DNA from: Actinomycetota bacterium
GTDB lineage: Bacteria; Actinomycetota; Humimicrobiia; Humimicrobiales; Humimicrobiaceae
Length of the DNA: 6,714 nucleotides
Reading direction: 5' to 3'
Assembly: GCA_015711775.1 (NCBI GenBank)
Contig: JACVJB010000049.1
Location: 1 to 6,714, forward strand
This document shows positions 446 through 6,204 of the stretch, in pieces. The notes beneath the pieces were generated by a model. It saw nothing but the letters and a program-made list of their open reading frames with translations. It ran no database searches and had not been told where the DNA came from. Position 1 is the stretch's first letter. Each line of letters starts with the position of its first letter. The position numbers were made by a program, and so were the translations under genes.

Positions 446-1453
446 ATGCCGCTTGTTCCAATGAAACAGATTCTTGACGAAGCAATGAAAAAAAACTATG
501 GGGTTGGAGCTTTTAATGTCAATAATATGGAGCAGATACAGGGGATTATGAGGGCCGCCAAAGAAACCCAGTCGCCTGTGATAGTCCAGGCAAGCCGGGG
601 CGCTTTAAAATACACAAATATGTATTATATAAAGCACATGGTTGAAGCTGCAGTAGAGGACAACCCGGAAATTCCTGTTGCGCTGCACCTTGACCATGGA
701 AACAGTCTCCAGACGTGCAAACTTGCAATTGAGCTGGGTTTTACATCTGTTATGATTGACGGCTCCTTAAAAGAGGATAGCAAAACCCCCACTTCATTTG
801 ATGAAAATGTTGAAGTTACAAAAGCTGTTGTCCAATATGCTCACAGTCTGGGTGTAACAGTGGAAGGAGAGCTCGGTACTCTTGGCGGCATTGAGGATGG
901 CGTGGGTTCCGGAAAGGTAAAGCTTACTGACCCGGACGAAGCTGCCAGGTTTATTAAAATTACCGGAGTTGATGCTCTTGCGCTTGCAATAGGCACAAGC
1001 CACGGAGCATATAAATTTAAGGTTGATCCCTCATTAGCTAAAAATATGCTGAAAATGGAAATAATAAAACAGGTAAGGGAAAAAGCGCCTGACACACCGC
1101 TTGTTATGCACGGTTCATCATCTGTTCCGAAGGAGCTTATTGATATAGTCAACAGTTACGGGGGTAATCTTCCGCATGCAGTTGGCGTTCCGATATCAGC
1201 TATACAGGAAGCTATTAAGCTTGGAATAAAGAAAATAAATGTTGACACTGACGGCAGGCTTGCAATAACGGGAGCCATTAGAAAATTCTTTGCAGAAAAT
1301 CCTGCGGAATTTGATCCAAGGTCCTATTTTGGAGCCGCAAGGCAGGCAGTGTATGAAGTAGTTAAAGGCAAGATGATAGACTTCGGGACCGCAGGCCATG
1401 CTTCTGATTATAAGCCGCTGACTCTTGATGATATGAAAAAAATATATTCATAA
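446..1453 (+). CDS. fba: Class II (metal-dependent) fructose-1,6-bisphosphate aldolase
   Basis: This 335-residue cytosolic enzyme cleaves fructose-1,6-bisphosphate to dihydroxyacetone phosphate and glyceraldehyde-3-phosphate, and runs in reverse in gluconeogenesis. Visible family signatures are GAFNVNN near the N-terminus (21-27), HLDHG (81-85) with the catalytic Asp83 and metal-ligand His84, and EGELGTLGGIED (140-151) with the acidic metal-site region. Further on are GTSHGAYK (183-190) with a metal-binding His186, MHGSSSVP (221-228) with His222, and KINVDTD (263-269), which contacts substrate phosphate. The length fits full-length class II aldolases of this longer subtype, with a C-terminal extension ending in DFGTAGHASDYKP. 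The start is set by an ideal AGGAGG at 434-439, six bases before ATG. No gene overlaps it, and a separate promoter and attenuator follow it, so it is probably its own transcription unit or the end of one. A related tagatose-bisphosphate aldolase role is less likely. Confidence 0.95.
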   Translation: MPLVPMKQILDEAMKKNYGVGAFNVNNMEQIQGIMRAAKETQSPVIVQASRGALKYTNMYYIKHMVEAAVEDNPEIPVALHLDHGNSLQTCKLAIELGFTSVMIDGSLKEDSKTPTSFDENVEVTKAVVQYAHSLGVTVEGELGTLGGIEDGVGSGKVKLTDPDEAARFIKITGVDALALAIGTSHGAYKFKVDPSLAKNMLKMEIIKQVREKAPDTPLVMHGSSSVPKELIDIVNSYGGNLPHAVGVPISAIQEAIKLGIKKINVDTDGRLAITGAIRKFFAENPAEFDPRSYFGAARQAVYEVVKGKMIDFGTAGHASDYKPLTLDDMKKIYS

Positions 1454-1478
1454 AAGCTTGGAGTAAAATAAAAAAAAT

Positions 1479-1506
1479 TTGACTTTTTTAGAAAAGCAGT
1501 TATCAT
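1479..1506 (+). promoter_or_regulatory. Candidate promoter for the glutamate synthase operon leader
   Basis: TTGACT (1479-1484) and TATCAT (1501-1506) are separated by 16 bases, close to the sigma-A consensus. Transcription would begin near 1513, giving a leader of roughly 150 bases that contains the complete two-hairpin and terminator element. The position, just upstream of that element and just downstream of the aldolase stop, makes functional sense. The assignment is by eye, in an A/T-rich background. Confidence 0.5.
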
Positions 1507-1536
1507 ACTTCTTTTAAAAATAAATTTAATATTAAT

Positions 1537-1596
1537 TGCTTTAGCATATTAATACAGGGTTGTATTTTATGCAAAGCAGAGTGGTAAAGAAGCCGC
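1537..1596 (+). promoter_or_regulatory. ANTAR-type dual-hairpin antiterminator element (P1 and P2)
   Basis: Hairpin P1 has AATAC (1551-1555) paired with GTATT (1562-1566), closing the six-base loop AGGGTT (1556-1561). Its helix continues outward through GCATA/TATGC (1544-1548 with 1568-1572) and TGCTTT/AAAGCA (1537-1542 with 1573-1578), interrupted by small bulges. Two bases later, hairpin P2 has GTGGT (1581-1585) paired with GCCGC (1592-1596), including two G-U pairs, around the six-base loop AAAGAA (1586-1591). Both loops have A at position 1 and G at position 4, the known recognition signature of ANTAR proteins such as EutV and NasR. P2 and the following terminator cannot form together, because they share bases 1586-1594. 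An ANTAR protein bound to P1-P2 should therefore allow read-through into the glutamate synthase genes. The pairing is seen directly; the function is inferred from the family. Confidence 0.8.
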
Positions 1597-1633
1597 AATT
1601 GACTGAGATGTCTTTTGGGGCTTTTTTATTTTT
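1586..1633 (+). terminator. Intrinsic terminator in the leader, mutually exclusive with hairpin P2
   Basis: AAAGAAGCC (1586-1594) pairs with GGCTTTTTT (1619-1627), with one G-U pair, and T1585 can add a pair with A1628. Within the loop a short GAC/GTC stem (1601-1603 with 1610-1612) can stack. The 3' arm runs into a T-rich tract through 1633. The 5' arm contains the whole loop and part of the 3' stem of P2, the arrangement expected for an attenuator. It lies 32 bases before the first operon start codon, so it would stop transcription before any structural gene. Confidence 0.8.
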
Positions 1634-1665
1634 GTGGCACATTTAGTGGAGTATAAATAATAAAA

Positions 1666-2799
1666 ATGAGTATGGCTTTAATTAAAAACAGGAAATCAGA
1701 TATTCCCGATTTCAGGGTTTCTTCAGGCTGTGCGGTATTTGGCATTTTAAATGAAAGCGGAACCTGTTTTGACGGCAGGATGATACTTGAGGGCATTAAA
1801 ATGATGCATGACCGCTCAAATGGGCTTGGAGGGGGATTTGCAGCTTATGGCATATATCCCCAATATAAAAATGACTGGGCTTTTCATATACTTTATGATG
1901 ACGATGCTGCGCGAAGCAGGATGGAAGACATACTTAAAAAAAGTTTTGCAATTCTATATTTTGAGGAAATCCCGACAAAAAGGTCCGCAGCCATAGATAA
2001 TCCGCCAATAATTTTCAGGTATTTTTTAAAACTTAAGGATATTTACAGCCTGTATGAAAGAAATGTTCCCGTTGACAGTTTTTCAGAGGAAGATTTCATA
2101 GTTGATTTTGTTCTTAAAATGAATGCCCGGGTCCAGGGAGCATATATTATCTCGAGCGGCAAGAACATGGGAATATTTAAAGGCGTAGGGTTTCCGGAAG
2201 ATATTGGAAATTATTTCAGGATAGATGAGTATAAGGGCTATTTATGGACCTCTCACGGCAGGTTTCCCACTAACAGCGTGGGCTGGTGGGGAGGCGCGCA
2301 TCCCTTTGGGCTTCTTAACTGGTCAGTTGTGCATAATGGCGAAATTTCATCATATGGAAGAAACCAGAGATATGTGGCAAGCCTTGGTTATGAATGCAGC
2401 CTTTCAACTGATACCGAGGCGATAACCTATCTTTTTGATCTTCTTGCAAGGAAAAAAAATATTGACCTTGAAATTATGAATATGATACTTGCAGCGCCCC
2501 TTTGGGAGCGTATTGAAAGAATGCCTGAAGATGACAGGGAGCTTGCAATGACATTAAGAATAATGTACGGAGGGGCGCTTATAAACGGCCCATTCAGTAT
2601 TATTGTCGGCCATAATGATTTTATGTATGCCTTAAACGACAGGATAAAACTGCGGCCTATGGTTGCCGCAAGGAAAAATGAGTATCTGTATGTGTCAAGC
2701 GAGGAGTCAGCAATAATAAAAGTATGCCCTAAACCTGATATTGTATGGCGACCTGAAGGCGGAATTCCTGTCATAGGCCGGATAAGGAAAAAGGATTAA
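1666..2799 (+). CDS. Glutamate synthase, glutaminase (class II amidotransferase) subunit, GltB domain 1-like
   Basis: This 377-residue protein is an Ntn-type class II glutamine amidotransferase that should hydrolyse glutamine to glutamate and ammonia for the FMN subunit encoded next. The probable catalytic nucleophile is Cys22 in SGCAVFGI. HDRSNGLGGGFAAYG (48-62) is typical of the standalone glutamate synthase domain 1. TSHGRFPTNS (195-204) carries the glutamine-binding Arg, HNGEISSYG (223-231) supplies the oxyanion Asn-Gly, and STDTE (247-251) carries the substrate-binding Asp. YVSSEESAI (342-350) closes the domain. Since Cys must be N-terminal to act, the 21 preceding residues are presumably cleaved, as GltB and PurF propeptides are. 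Upstream in-frame TAA at 1654-1656 fixes ATG 1666 as the start. The only Shine-Dalgarno candidate, GGAG at 1648-1651, sits unusually far away (14 bases). It is the first operon gene after the attenuator. PurF itself is unlikely because no phosphoribosyltransferase domain follows. Confidence 0.9.
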   Translation: MSMALIKNRKSDIPDFRVSSGCAVFGILNESGTCFDGRMILEGIKMMHDRSNGLGGGFAAYGIYPQYKNDWAFHILYDDDAARSRMEDILKKSFAILYFEEIPTKRSAAIDNPPIIFRYFLKLKDIYSLYERNVPVDSFSEEDFIVDFVLKMNARVQGAYIISSGKNMGIFKGVGFPEDIGNYFRIDEYKGYLWTSHGRFPTNSVGWWGGAHPFGLLNWSVVHNGEISSYGRNQRYVASLGYECSLSTDTEAITYLFDLLARKKNIDLEIMNMILAAPLWERIERMPEDDRELAMTLRIMYGGALINGPFSIIVGHNDFMYALNDRIKLRPMVAARKNEYLYVSSEESAIIKVCPKPDIVWRPEGGIPVIGRIRKKD

Positions 2800-2802
2800 G
2801 AT

Positions 2803-4323
2803 ATGCCGTTAAAATTGAACCAGTCGGAATTTGTTGTTGAAAGGGATTTAAATAAATGTATCTCCTGTGAGGTATGCGTAAGACAATGCTCAAATGACGT
2901 TCATGAGTTTGACGCTGATGATAAAACAGTGCTGAGCGAGTGCAGCAAATGCATTGGCTGCCACAGATGCGAATCACTTTGCCCCACTGAAGCTATTACT
3001 ATAAGAAAAAAAGAGGCGGAATTTAAAGAAAATTCTAACTGGCAGCCGGCTCATATAAAAAATATATACAGGCAGGCAGACTCGGGAGGAGTGCTTCTTA
3101 CAGGCATGGGATCAGATAAGCCACATACAGTTTACTGGGATCATATTCTTTTTAATGCGGCGCAGGTCACAAATCCTTCAATAGACCCTTTGCGAGAGCC
3201 AATGGAAATAAAAACATTTATAGGAGCAAAACCTGAAAGTCTTGAAATCGAAAAAATTGGCGATGAGTTTAAATTAAAAACAAAACTTGGGCCGCACCTT
3301 GAATTATCTACGCCAATACTTATTAGCGCAATGTCGTATGGCTCAATTAGCCTTAATGCATGCAAGTCGCTTGCATCTGCAGCAGAGGCATTTGGCACAT
3401 TTTATAATACCGGTGAGGGAGGTATGCATAAAGAGCTTGCACGCTATGCAAAAAATACAATAGTGCAGGTTGCATCCGGAAGATTCGGGGTGGACAGGCA
3501 GTATTTGAGAAGCGCTGCTGCAGTTGAGATTAAAATAGGGCAGGGAGCCAAACCCGGCATAGGAGGGCATTTGCCTGGAGAAAAAGTTACCGCAGATATT
3601 TCCGGCACACGTATGATTCCGCAGGGTTCAGATGCAATATCCCCTGCCCCGCACCATGACATATATTCCATCGAGGATCTGGCTCAGCTTATTTTTGCCA
3701 TTAAGGAAGCCACGGATTATTTAAAGCCTGTCGGCGTTAAGGTATCTGCAGTTCACAATATTGCCCCTATTGCAAGCGGCATAGTTCGGGCTGGCGCAGA
3801 TTTTGTATCCATTGACGGTTTCAGGGGCGGAACAGGGGCGGCTCCCCAGGCAATAAGGGACAATGTGGGAATTCCTATAGAGCTGGCGCTTGCAGCTGTG
3901 GATACCAGGCTGCGGGAGGAAGGAATACGCCATAAAGCGGCAATTATTGTTGCAGGAAGCATGAGATCAAGCTCTGATATTATAAAGGCAATCGCACTGG
4001 GCGCAGATGCCGTATATATTGCAACAGCAGCCCTTATAGCGCTGGGATGCCATCTTTGCCAGAAATGCTATACCGGAAAATGCAACTGGGGCATTGCAAC
4101 CCAGGACCCTTACCTTACAAAAAGGCTGAACCCTTCCATAGGGACAAGAAAGCTTTCAGGGCTTCTGCGGGCATGGTCGCTTGAAATAAAGGAAATGCTT
4201 GGAGGAGCAGGAATAAATGCCATAGAAAGTTTAAGGGGAAACAAGGAACATTTAAGGGGCATTAATTTAAGCGAAACTGAACTTTCAATACTTGGAATAA
4301 AACACGCGGGCCAGGCATGGTAA
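2803..4323 (+). CDS. Glutamate synthase, FMN/Fe-S synthase subunit with N-terminal 2[4Fe-4S] ferredoxin module (GltB domain 2-like)
   Basis: This 506-residue subunit should carry the glutamate-forming reaction: ammonia plus 2-oxoglutarate, reduced on FMN. An N-terminal bacterial-type ferredoxin module binds two [4Fe-4S] clusters: Cys19, 22, 25, 29 and Cys50, 53, 56, 60, each followed by the usual spacing. The FMN-binding barrel follows: SAMSYGSISLNA (175-186), NTGEGG (202-207), KIGQGAKPGIGGHLPG (244-259), SPAPHHDIYSIEDL (280-293), VSIDGFRGGTGAAP (335-348). Cys416, Cys422 and Cys427 reproduce the C-x5-C-x4-C spacing of the [3Fe-4S] site of GltB, followed by GIATQDP. An extra Cys419 lies inside that motif. 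AAGGA at 2791-2795, within the end of the preceding gene, is seven bases from ATG; only three bases separate stop and start, so translation is probably coupled. The layout matches archaeal-type standalone glutamate synthase proteins. Ferredoxin module and barrel are fused, unlike bacterial GltB. Confidence 0.93.
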   Translation: MPLKLNQSEFVVERDLNKCISCEVCVRQCSNDVHEFDADDKTVLSECSKCIGCHRCESLCPTEAITIRKKEAEFKENSNWQPAHIKNIYRQADSGGVLLTGMGSDKPHTVYWDHILFNAAQVTNPSIDPLREPMEIKTFIGAKPESLEIEKIGDEFKLKTKLGPHLELSTPILISAMSYGSISLNACKSLASAAEAFGTFYNTGEGGMHKELARYAKNTIVQVASGRFGVDRQYLRSAAAVEIKIGQGAKPGIGGHLPGEKVTADISGTRMIPQGSDAISPAPHHDIYSIEDLAQLIFAIKEATDYLKPVGVKVSAVHNIAPIASGIVRAGADFVSIDGFRGGTGAAPQAIRDNVGIPIELALAAVDTRLREEGIRHKAAIIVAGSMRSSSDIIKAIALGADAVYIATAALIALGCHLCQKCYTGKCNWGIATQDPYLTKRLNPSIGTRKLSGLLRAWSLEIKEMLGGAGINAIESLRGNKEHLRGINLSETELSILGIKHAGQAW

Positions 4324-4379: not shown

Positions 4380-4385
4380 TTGATA

Positions 4386-4859
4386 TTGAAAAGGATTTTT
4401 ATAGATGAGCAGTATTGCATAGGATGCAGGCTATGCGAAATATACTGCCAGGTTAAGCATTCAAAGAGCAAAAAAATACTTAAAGCTTTCAGGGAAGGTC
4501 AGCCTGATGTTATGTCAAGGGTTCTTGTTGAAGAGATTGGCAGCAATTCTTTTGCAATACAGTGCAGGCATTGCAAGGATGCCCCCTGCGTTGGCGCATG
4601 CATTTCAGGAGCAATGACAAAAAATGAAAATACAGGTGTTGTAATATGTGATGAAGAAAAATGCGTGGGGTGCTGGAGCTGCATAATGGTATGCCCGTAC
4701 GGAGTGATAAAAAGAGATTTAAAAGCCTCAAAAGTTGCTTCAAAATGCGACCTTTGCTCTGATGAGGAAGAACCTGTATGCGTAAAGAATTGCCCGAATG
4801 AAGCGCTAAAAATTATAGATACAGATAAAAACATCGGTGGAGAATATGGGGAAAAATAA
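4386..4859 (+). CDS. Four-cluster [4Fe-4S] ferredoxin-type electron-transfer subunit (HycB/DmsB-like)
   Basis: From the TTG start this is 157 residues; starting at TTG 4380 would add two. Four cysteine quartets are visible: C11-x2-C14-x2-C17-x3-C21, C60-x2-C63-x4-C68-x3-C72, C93-x2-C96-x2-C99-x3-C103 and C121-x2-C124-x7-C132-x3-C136. This is the classic pattern for four [4Fe-4S] clusters in electron-transfer subunits of hydrogenases, formate dehydrogenases and DMSO-type reductases. No signal peptide or membrane segment is visible, so it is cytosolic. Between the FMN synthase subunit and a flavoprotein, it most likely wires electrons from NAD(P)H through FAD to the ferredoxin module of the synthase. 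Such small ferredoxins recur in standalone archaeal-type glutamate synthase clusters. It overlaps the start of the next gene by 14 bases, indicating coupled translation. The substrate assignment rests on context, because the fold alone is generic. Confidence 0.88.
   Translation: MKRIFIDEQYCIGCRLCEIYCQVKHSKSKKILKAFREGQPDVMSRVLVEEIGSNSFAIQCRHCKDAPCVGACISGAMTKNENTGVVICDEEKCVGCWSCIMVCPYGVIKRDLKASKVASKCDLCSDEEEPVCVKNCPNEALKIIDTDKNIGGEYGEK
4836..4842 (+). promoter_or_regulatory. Ribosome binding site for the flavoprotein gene
   Basis: GGTGGAG (4836-4842) lies three bases before ATG 4846, slightly tight but usable. An in-frame GTG at 4837 falls inside this site, so the GTG is less likely to be the start. 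The site is inside the end of the polyferredoxin gene. Confidence 0.5.
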
Positions 4860-6204
4860 AAACATTTTTAAAACGGATTACCTTATAATAGGCAATTCTG
4901 CCGCAGGGCTTTCTGCTGCAGAAAATATAAGGAAAAATGACAAAAACAGGGCCATTTCAGTACTTACCAGGGAAAAATACAGCAACTACTCAAAGCCGCT
5001 TATACCATATTATCTTGCCGGCAGTCTTGATCCCGGCAGCCTTTATTTTAAAAAAAGAAATTTCTATACAGAAAACAGCATTGATTTAAAAACATCTGAA
5101 AATGTTGTATTTGTAAGCAGCAGCGATAATATAGTTTTAACTGAGTCTGGAAGCCAGTATTTATATAATAAGCTTCTTATTGCAAGCGGAGGCAGGCCAA
5201 TAATGCCTCAAATAAAAGTTATTGAAAAAACAGGCAAAAGTTACAGCCTTGGTGAGGCAATGAATTCTGTAAATGGAATTTTTACCCTAACAACGCTTGA
5301 TGATGCAATCAGGATAAGAAAGCATATAAATGAGTACTCAGTAAAAACCGCATCAATACTTGGAGGCGGCCTGATAGGTTTAAAAGCTGCAGAAGCGCTG
5401 CTTGAGCTGCATTTAAGTATTAATGTAATTGAGCTTTCAGATAAGCTGCTTTCAGCATCATTTGATAAAACTGCCTCAGATATATTCAGTGAAGTAATAA
5501 AAGCGTCCGGCAGCAGCATATACTGCGGCCAGACAATTGATGAAATTTATGTTGAAAATAACAGTATTACAGCTTATAAGCTTAGCAGCGGAAAAAAAAT
5601 AACTTCAAATTTACTTATAGTGGCAGTTGGAGTTTTACCCGATGTAGAGTATTTAAAAAATAGCGAAATTAAAACAGATGGCGGAATAATTACTGATTGC
5701 AGCATGAAAACGTCCGCCGGCAATATATATGCTGCAGGAGATGTTGTAAAAAGCCAAGACGTTCTTTCCGCGAGTGAAAGGAACATGGCAATATGGCCCA
5801 TTGCTGTTAAGCAGGGTGCAGTTGCAGGCGCCAACATGTCAGGAGCAAGCGCCGCATACTCTGGTGGATTTTTGATGAACTCTGTTGAAATACTTGGCAT
5901 GCCTGTAATATCGCTTGGGTTAAGCAGCATTGACAATGAAGATAGTACGCAAGACTTAAAAGTATATAAAGCATATGATATGGGCAGGAAAATATACCGG
6001 AAAATTGTTATAAGGCAAAACAGGATAATAGGGGCAATACTTATCGGCGCCATTGAAAGGGCAGGAATTTACTGCGGACTGATAAATAATAACGTTGACG
6101 TAGCTGAAATAGGACAAAACATTGTAAAGGAAGATTTCGGCTTAATTCAACTTCCGGCAGATTACAGGAAACATCTTGTGGTTGGAGAAGGAATTGAGGT
6201 ATAG
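4846..6204 (+). CDS. FAD/NAD(P)H-dependent oxidoreductase, probable electron-input subunit of glutamate synthase
   Basis: Taking ATG 4846 gives 452 residues; an upstream GTG at 4837 would add three. It belongs to the two-dinucleotide-fold pyridine nucleotide-disulfide oxidoreductase class, closest in style to the flavin part of nitrite reductase and NADH oxidase. IIGNSAAG (14-21) is the FAD-binding turn, with Ser in place of the second Gly. YSKPLIPYYLAG (48-59) follows, LIASGGRP (111-118) ends the first half, and ILGGGLIG (171-178) is the NAD(P)-binding turn. IYAAGDV (294-300) carries the FAD-ribityl Asp299. An acidic residue (Glu196, in VIEL) ends the second strand of the NAD fold, which favours NADH over NADPH. 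No redox-active disulfide motif is present, so electrons probably go from FAD directly to iron-sulfur clusters. It replaces classical GltD in this operon by position. A stand-alone NADH oxidase or a different reductase is possible but fits the context less well. Confidence 0.87.
   Translation: MGKNKNIFKTDYLIIGNSAAGLSAAENIRKNDKNRAISVLTREKYSNYSKPLIPYYLAGSLDPGSLYFKKRNFYTENSIDLKTSENVVFVSSSDNIVLTESGSQYLYNKLLIASGGRPIMPQIKVIEKTGKSYSLGEAMNSVNGIFTLTTLDDAIRIRKHINEYSVKTASILGGGLIGLKAAEALLELHLSINVIELSDKLLSASFDKTASDIFSEVIKASGSSIYCGQTIDEIYVENNSITAYKLSSGKKITSNLLIVAVGVLPDVEYLKNSEIKTDGGIITDCSMKTSAGNIYAAGDVVKSQDVLSASERNMAIWPIAVKQGAVAGANMSGASAAYSGGFLMNSVEILGMPVISLGLSSIDNEDSTQDLKVYKAYDMGRKIYRKIVIRQNRIIGAILIGAIERAGIYCGLINNNVDVAEIGQNIVKEDFGLIQLPADYRKHLVVGEGIEV

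Follow-up and report, generated by a model that had tools for sequence, protein, structure and literature searches.

A conserved two-hexaloop leader as a probable ANTAR attenuator of glutamate synthase genes in an uncultured Actinomycetota family

The window analyzed here is a stretch of 6,714 nucleotides that forms an entire contig of an actinomycetotal genome bin (G000; 1.44 Mb, 68% complete). Between a truncated ANTAR gene and the genes of a split glutamate synthase, we find an ANTAR-type leader (1537-1633, + strand) with two hexaloop hairpins and an overlapping predicted terminator. We consider it very probable that this leader is an attenuator of the glutamate synthase genes that is opened by the ANTAR protein encoded at 3-215.

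The leader and its genomic setting

All features lie on the + strand, in the order ANTAR gene end, class II aldolase, leader and five split glutamate synthase genes. The ANTAR gene (3-215; PF03861, 73.9 bits) is truncated by the contig start and encodes the C-terminal 70 residues of the protein. The class II fructose-bisphosphate aldolase gene (446-1453; PF01116, 332 bits) fills the interval between it and the leader. Downstream are the class II glutamine amidotransferase subunit (1666-2799; PF00310, 39.5 bits), for which we coin the label gltB1, the FMN/4Fe-4S catalytic subunit with its N-terminal 4Fe-4S domain (2803-4323; PF01645, 465.6 bits, with Fer4 matches), a 4Fe-4S electron-transfer subunit (4380-4859; PF13247, 68.4 bits), a pyridine-nucleotide-disulphide oxidoreductase subunit (4837-6204; PF07992, 151.3 bits) and the GXGXG subunit, which is truncated by the contig end (6248-6712; PF01493, 56.3 bits). 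A promoter-like site (TTGACT-16-TATCAT, 1479-1506, + strand) matches 10 of 12 consensus letters 5' of the leader, and it is weak on its own because the window contains two such sites where shuffles predict 1.7. TTGACA/TATTAT-like sites, as judged by eye, also stand 5' of many orthologous leaders.

The first hairpin, P1 (1551-1566), pairs AATAC (1551-1555) with GTATT (1562-1566) around the loop AGGGTT (1556-1561), while the second, P2 (1581-1596), pairs GTGGT (1581-1585) with GCCGC (1592-1596), two of the five pairs being G-U, around the loop AAAGAA (1586-1591). Both loops have A at the first and G at the fourth position (A1 and G4), exactly as a sequence-only reading of this DNA had described them. 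That reading had also proposed that P2 shares the 5' arm of a terminator, and the computed fold agrees: 1583-1594 pairs with 1619-1630 in a predicted intrinsic terminator (1583-1630; 1583-1634 with its U-rich tract), and P2 and the terminator are therefore mutually exclusive. The minimum-energy fold of 1537-1633 (-38.4 kcal/mol, z -6.94, with none of 200 shuffles as low) contains the terminator pairing in place of P2 and sets P1 at the apex of a long stem (1537-1578), where an A-U pair tightens the P1 loop to four unpaired bases. The apex of the terminator, which we refer to as P3 (1601-1612, GAC-TGAGAT-GTC), is itself a hexaloop with G4 but with U1.

A strict descriptor of this design (two A1/G4 hexaloop hairpins with at least 5 pairs each, 3-25 nt apart, and a terminator overlapping the second) has a single match in the window, on the + strand at this leader. 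One hundred dinucleotide shuffles, searched on both strands, average 0.1 hexaloop pairs each, and in no case does a terminator overlap the pair. A simple terminator scan of the window did not list the predicted terminator at 1583-1630, presumably because its stem is interrupted. An Rfam search returned no family match to the leader at E values up to 10, with four chance-level matches elsewhere.

The arrangement resembles that of the Enterococcus faecalis eut leaders read by EutV, in which, according to the portions of PMC3369931 and PMC8934654 available to us, a pair of A1/G4 hexaloop hairpins precedes the genes and the second hairpin overlaps a terminator. The window shares with that system the dual A1/G4 hexaloops, the overlap of P2 with the terminator and the ANTAR residues that contact G4. 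Unlike the eut leaders, in which the linker between the hairpins spans 5-12 nt and a 14-nt linker sharply lowered induction of a eutP reporter (PMC3369931, in the part available), the window leader has a linker of 14 nt; this is mostly paired inside the long P1 stem, and the linkers of other family leaders are mostly shorter.

Orthologous leaders and the terminator apex

Within the window's family (f1, Actinomycetota), we compared 35 genomes and find gltB1 in 23, a count from which weak matches at E above 1e-10, being other amidotransferases, were left out. The alignment comprises 22 gltB1 leaders: G002 was omitted, as its gene has 39 nt of upstream sequence, and so were duplicate copies of the same contigs from a named collection. 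All 22 readable leaders keep the design. The combined P1, P2 and P3 positions pair in 95.2% of cells, compared with 82.9% in shuffles, none of which (0/500) reaches the observed value, and 38-57% in slid versions. Two-sided changes are seen in 14 of the 18 pairs, including 7 of 8 in P1 and 2 of 5 in P2, where two pairs are invariant. Because the structure was read from the same alignment, the paired-cell count is favored by this procedure, while the two-sided changes are not. The sequence-only reading had named a lack of conservation and covariation among related leaders as grounds for refutation; the opposite is observed, in both stems, and the shuffles together with the orthologues rule out a chance origin of the hairpin pair.

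P2 is 100% paired across the 22 leaders; P1 plus the terminator pairing is kept in 88.8% of cells, and the terminator pairing in 84.9-100% of cells depending on the helix. By aligned column, the P2 loop has A1 and G4 in 22/22 leaders with the remaining positions varying, and the P1 loop has A1 in 17/22 and G4 in 21/22. Several leaders depart from these columns. The P1 row is misaligned for L023, where P1 has 3 pairs and a loop with G1, and for L036, where P1 is placed further upstream; no clear P1 can be made out in L041, and for P2 of L038 the loop TATGGA is the better reading. In the window's genus, a change of the outer P2 pair to U-G keeps P2 paired and gives G opposite G in the terminator (alignment columns 66/79 and 79/115). 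A change that breaks the terminator pair and spares P2 suggests that P2 is kept for its own sake.

These patterns bear on whether the hairpin and U tract merely terminate the aldolase transcript, with the hexaloops as by-products. The terminator does lie just 3' of the aldolase gene and in the same direction, as this explanation would have it. However, P1 covaries even though it is outside the terminator, the outer P2 pair persists in the window's genus where the matching terminator pair breaks, and the leader is retained in four genomes (G010, G020, G027 and G029) in which a microcompartment shell-like gene beside the GAF-ANTAR gene replaces the aldolase. We therefore regard a mere aldolase terminator as most improbable.

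In the computed fold of the window, holding P2 folded costs 13.2 kcal/mol, and the terminator fold is favored over P2 by 0.7 to 19.1 kcal/mol in 21/22 leaders, which are those in which a script located the P2 core. Given this difference in stability, termination is the predicted default and P2 would need help to persist. Since transcription yields P2 before it reaches the terminator's 3' arm, the protein would have a brief time in which to act. It could also be imagined that the ANTAR protein binds the leader but acts otherwise, by favoring termination or by being held on the leader RNA as a decoy, and an EutV-sequestering RNA, EutX, is described in the part of PMC8934654 available to us. Given that only one of P2 and the terminator can form and that the terminator is more stable in 21/22 leaders, binding that holds P2 would instead be expected to raise read-through, which makes such an action very unlikely.

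As read by alignment, 19 of the 22 gltB leaders have six bases in the P3 apex loop; among these 19, G4 occurs in 16, A1 in 13 and the two together in 11. Other terminators of the family loci, identified by folding, number 111 and include 25 six-base loops, 5 with G4 and 2 with A1 and G4. The resulting contrast in G4 (16/19 versus 5/25, Fisher test) sets alignment against folding and treats related leaders as though they were independent. When 26 leader-derived terminators from gltB and glutamate dehydrogenase (gdh) leaders are pooled and likewise read by folding, 12 have six-base loops and 5 of these have G4, and the enrichment at P3 is therefore weaker than the Fisher test suggests. Exceptions include the window, with U1, and L021, L029 and L034, which are without G4. 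Inspection by eye of 15 aligned gdh leaders shows no apex loop of six bases that carries G4. In view of these points, we do not count P3 as an established third site for ANTAR; the six-base terminator apex may be such a site or may reflect shared inheritance.

The ANTAR protein and its distribution

The protein encoded at 3-215 is the single ANTAR match in the window's bin. The fragment is 87% identical to residues 170-238 of a GAF-ANTAR protein in G001 (L116 9084-9800, minus strand), and full-length relatives in G001, G002 and G041 have GAF and ANTAR matches only, with no receiver domain; the GAF domain of the truncated window protein is assigned from these relatives. The sequence-only reading had called for a phosphorylated ANTAR protein in its in vitro check, which is probably the wrong reagent in view of this domain composition; a one-component GAF-ANTAR protein is the likely regulator. 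The full-length relatives also differ in this respect from EutV, a receiver-ANTAR response regulator with the kinase EutW. The closest solved structure to the GAF part is the GAF domain of PtsP. GAF domains of PtsP and NifA respond to glutamine and/or 2-oxoglutarate.

Contact residues of EutV were taken from the part of PMC8934654 available to us, with the numbering shifted by two as judged from residue types. Of these, 8/11 are identical in the window's ANTAR protein. The equivalents of the G4-contacting Arg142, Lys149 and Glu160 are invariant in 17/17 genomes, as are those of Lys143, Met172 and Arg175. Lys147 is represented by K or R and Asn173 by N or D across the 17 genomes, and Tyr164, Arg168 and Arg177 are replaced in 17/17.

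An ANTAR match is found in 17 of the 35 family genomes, and its occurrence follows that of gltB1 (17/23 genomes with gltB1 versus 0/12 without; Fisher p 3e-5, ignoring relatedness). A whole-protein search recovers 16 full-length relatives plus the window fragment in the same 17 genomes, with low-scoring near neighbors set apart. A second GAF-ANTAR gene is present in one genome, at G029:C20:265-951. In 15 of the 17 genomes, the ANTAR gene is found no more than 3 kb upstream of the leader and gltB1, with which it shares contig and strand; in G002 and G013 it occupies the end of a different contig. The gene that separates it from the leader is, by sequence resemblance, aldolase-like in 11/15 cases, including the window and G001, and shell-like in 4/15 (loci L060, L064, L065 and L067), with a Pfam BMC match at 1779-2042 of L064. 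Together with the conserved and covarying hairpins, the ANTAR gene upstream and the glutamate synthase genes downstream support the original proposal of an ANTAR attenuator of a glutamate synthase operon.

The leader itself is present in 17/17 ANTAR-bearing genomes versus 9/18 of those in which no ANTAR gene was detected (Fisher p 0.001), such that 17 of the 26 leader-bearing family genomes have a detected ANTAR gene. Six of the nine leader-bearing genomes without one have gltB1, and in four of these six the contig offers no more than about 620 nt upstream of the gene. In G006 and G008, we did not find an ANTAR gene in the 2-4 kb available upstream of gltB1. These nine genomes, and the latter two in particular, would fit a genuine attenuator whose RNA is read by another factor, such as an RNA-binding protein, a leader peptide or a ligand. 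Against this, the loop positions that vary least carry the letters of known ANTAR targets, the ANTAR gene both tracks gltB1 and adjoins it, and the leader matches no known RNA family in Rfam. A reader other than the ANTAR protein is thus distinctly unlikely in our assessment.

Glutamate dehydrogenase leaders and a proposed mechanism

A model built from the 22 gltB1 leaders (R1) gives 28 matches in the 35 family genomes at E<=0.001, consisting of the 22 training leaders, 5 leaders that precede an NADP-type glutamate dehydrogenase gene and 1 leader before an unrelated gene in G014. The glutamate dehydrogenase of the window's genome, at 745.6 bits, clears the cut-off of 536. A second model (R2) from 15 aligned gdh leaders gives 18 matches at E<=0.001, all 18 before a glutamate dehydrogenase gene, of which 15 are training leaders and 3 are new (G021, G026 and G030). 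A gdh leader is thereby found in 18/35 family genomes, the window's genome among them, and the two models combined yield 40 leaders in 26/35 genomes. In the aligned gdh leaders, A1 and G4 occur in 15/15 P1 loops and 14/15 P2 loops. Several of their P2 hairpins have two stem pairs only, and the gdh pair counts exceed shuffles on 3/5 measures, the exceptions being the pair-count and pair-type measures. Several gdh leaders of the family carry AGCAAAGAAGCAT at P2, which agrees with 12/13 positions of the eut consensus AGCAANGRRGCUY. On the strength of these sequence features, the regulon likely includes glutamate dehydrogenase. The glutamate synthase target proposed at the outset stands, but as the sole target it appears too narrow, since a leader of the same design precedes gdh.

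Glutamate dehydrogenase matches occur in 28 family genomes, 10 of which have no firm leader. The gdh genes of G007 and G011 have at most 45 nt of upstream sequence, and no leader was found in the 350 nt read upstream of the eight others; among these eight genomes, only G013 has a detected ANTAR gene. The G014 leader noted above (G014:C80; L112 4744-4844, R1 59.8 bits) precedes an FlK-type thioesterase gene and is a decayed copy whose P2 forms no A1/G4 hexaloop; neither gltB1 nor an ANTAR gene was found in this genome. A weak gdh-type leader is also seen at the start of another contig of the same genome (G014:C56; L166 45-148), with no long same-direction frame directly after it, and the leader match in G005:C213 is weak. 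We find no firm targets beyond gltB and gdh among the 35 family genomes.

Outside the family, an R1 scan of 26 genomes of relatives (61 genomes in total) gave no match at E<=1 under strict filters. A leader with two hexaloops is nonetheless present in G041, from another family of the phylum; it scores R1 25.2 bits (E 0.015) when 72 kb are searched, though it is absent from the whole-genome R1 scan results. This locus (L178 6774-12580, G041:C18) contains a GAF-ANTAR gene, the leader, glutamine synthetase and an amidotransferase in this order, with other genes interspersed. A Clostridia MAG (L009) likewise has a leader (35.8 bits), followed by an ANTAR gene, a type III glutamine synthetase and a split glutamate synthase with the amidotransferase gene. 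A second, single hexaloop site lies near 1472 of this locus (766-3662), after the ANTAR gene and ahead of the glutamine synthetase, and near 836 the apex loop of the leader's terminator is AGCGAT. With a leader 5' of it and a further hexaloop site after it, the ANTAR gene of L009 may sit within its own regulon. Other loci outside the family, such as L012, L015-L018, L039 and L042-L044, gave no hexaloop pair with a U run.

Under the mechanism that we propose, the terminator would form by default and transcription would stop ahead of the glutamate synthase genes. Binding of the ANTAR protein would keep P2 folded, as modeled on EutV, and would make 1586-1594 unavailable to the terminator, such that RNA polymerase could enter the glutamate synthase genes. 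With a GAF-ANTAR fusion as the regulator in this lineage, the activating signal is probably a small molecule that acts on the GAF domain, and not phosphorylation. The resemblance to the PtsP and NifA GAF domains leads us to guess that this ligand is a metabolite of nitrogen status, for example 2-oxoglutarate or glutamine. With a similar leader before gdh in many family genomes, the protein likely coordinates both glutamate-forming routes. A more elaborate and rather doubtful possibility is that a one-component GAF-ANTAR sensor of a nitrogen metabolite steps along the nascent RNA through three ANTAR hexaloops, P1, P2 and P3, to switch on glutamate synthase and uses two-loop leaders at gdh. If this stepping were true, the uncultured family would set both glutamate routes by RNA antitermination.

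Systems of the attenuator kind favored here have been known since 2012. In the available text of PMC3369931, the glutamate synthase genes of Desulfotomaculum reducens carry predicted ANTAR sites, which are the same type of RNA element as the leader in the window; that case differs in belonging to another phylum and in that the acting ANTAR protein is not named in this text. A glutamate dehydrogenase target is likewise not found there, supplementary tables aside. The present system also resembles NasR and the nasF leader of Klebsiella, in which a sensor domain fused to ANTAR controls a nitrogen operon by antitermination (PMC3369931, in the part available), but where NasR senses nitrate/nitrite through a NIT domain, the sensor here is a GAF domain. 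What is new is a well-supported case in an uncultured actinomycetotal family, with a GAF-type regulator adjoining its likely target and gdh as a likely second target. In the literature covered by our search, partly available to us, we found no report of glutamate dehydrogenase under ANTAR control, and none of an ANTAR leader from this lineage.

As of 2012, no example of a PAS- or GAF-ANTAR protein had yet been characterized, according to the available part of PMC3369931. A GAF-ANTAR protein with likely targets therefore makes the question of the GAF ligand directly testable, and the 40 conserved leaders in 26/35 genomes offer a natural test set for the loop-base and spacing needs of ANTAR proteins. 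If the attenuator reading is right, many members of this family control two glutamate-forming enzymes with one RNA-binding sensor.
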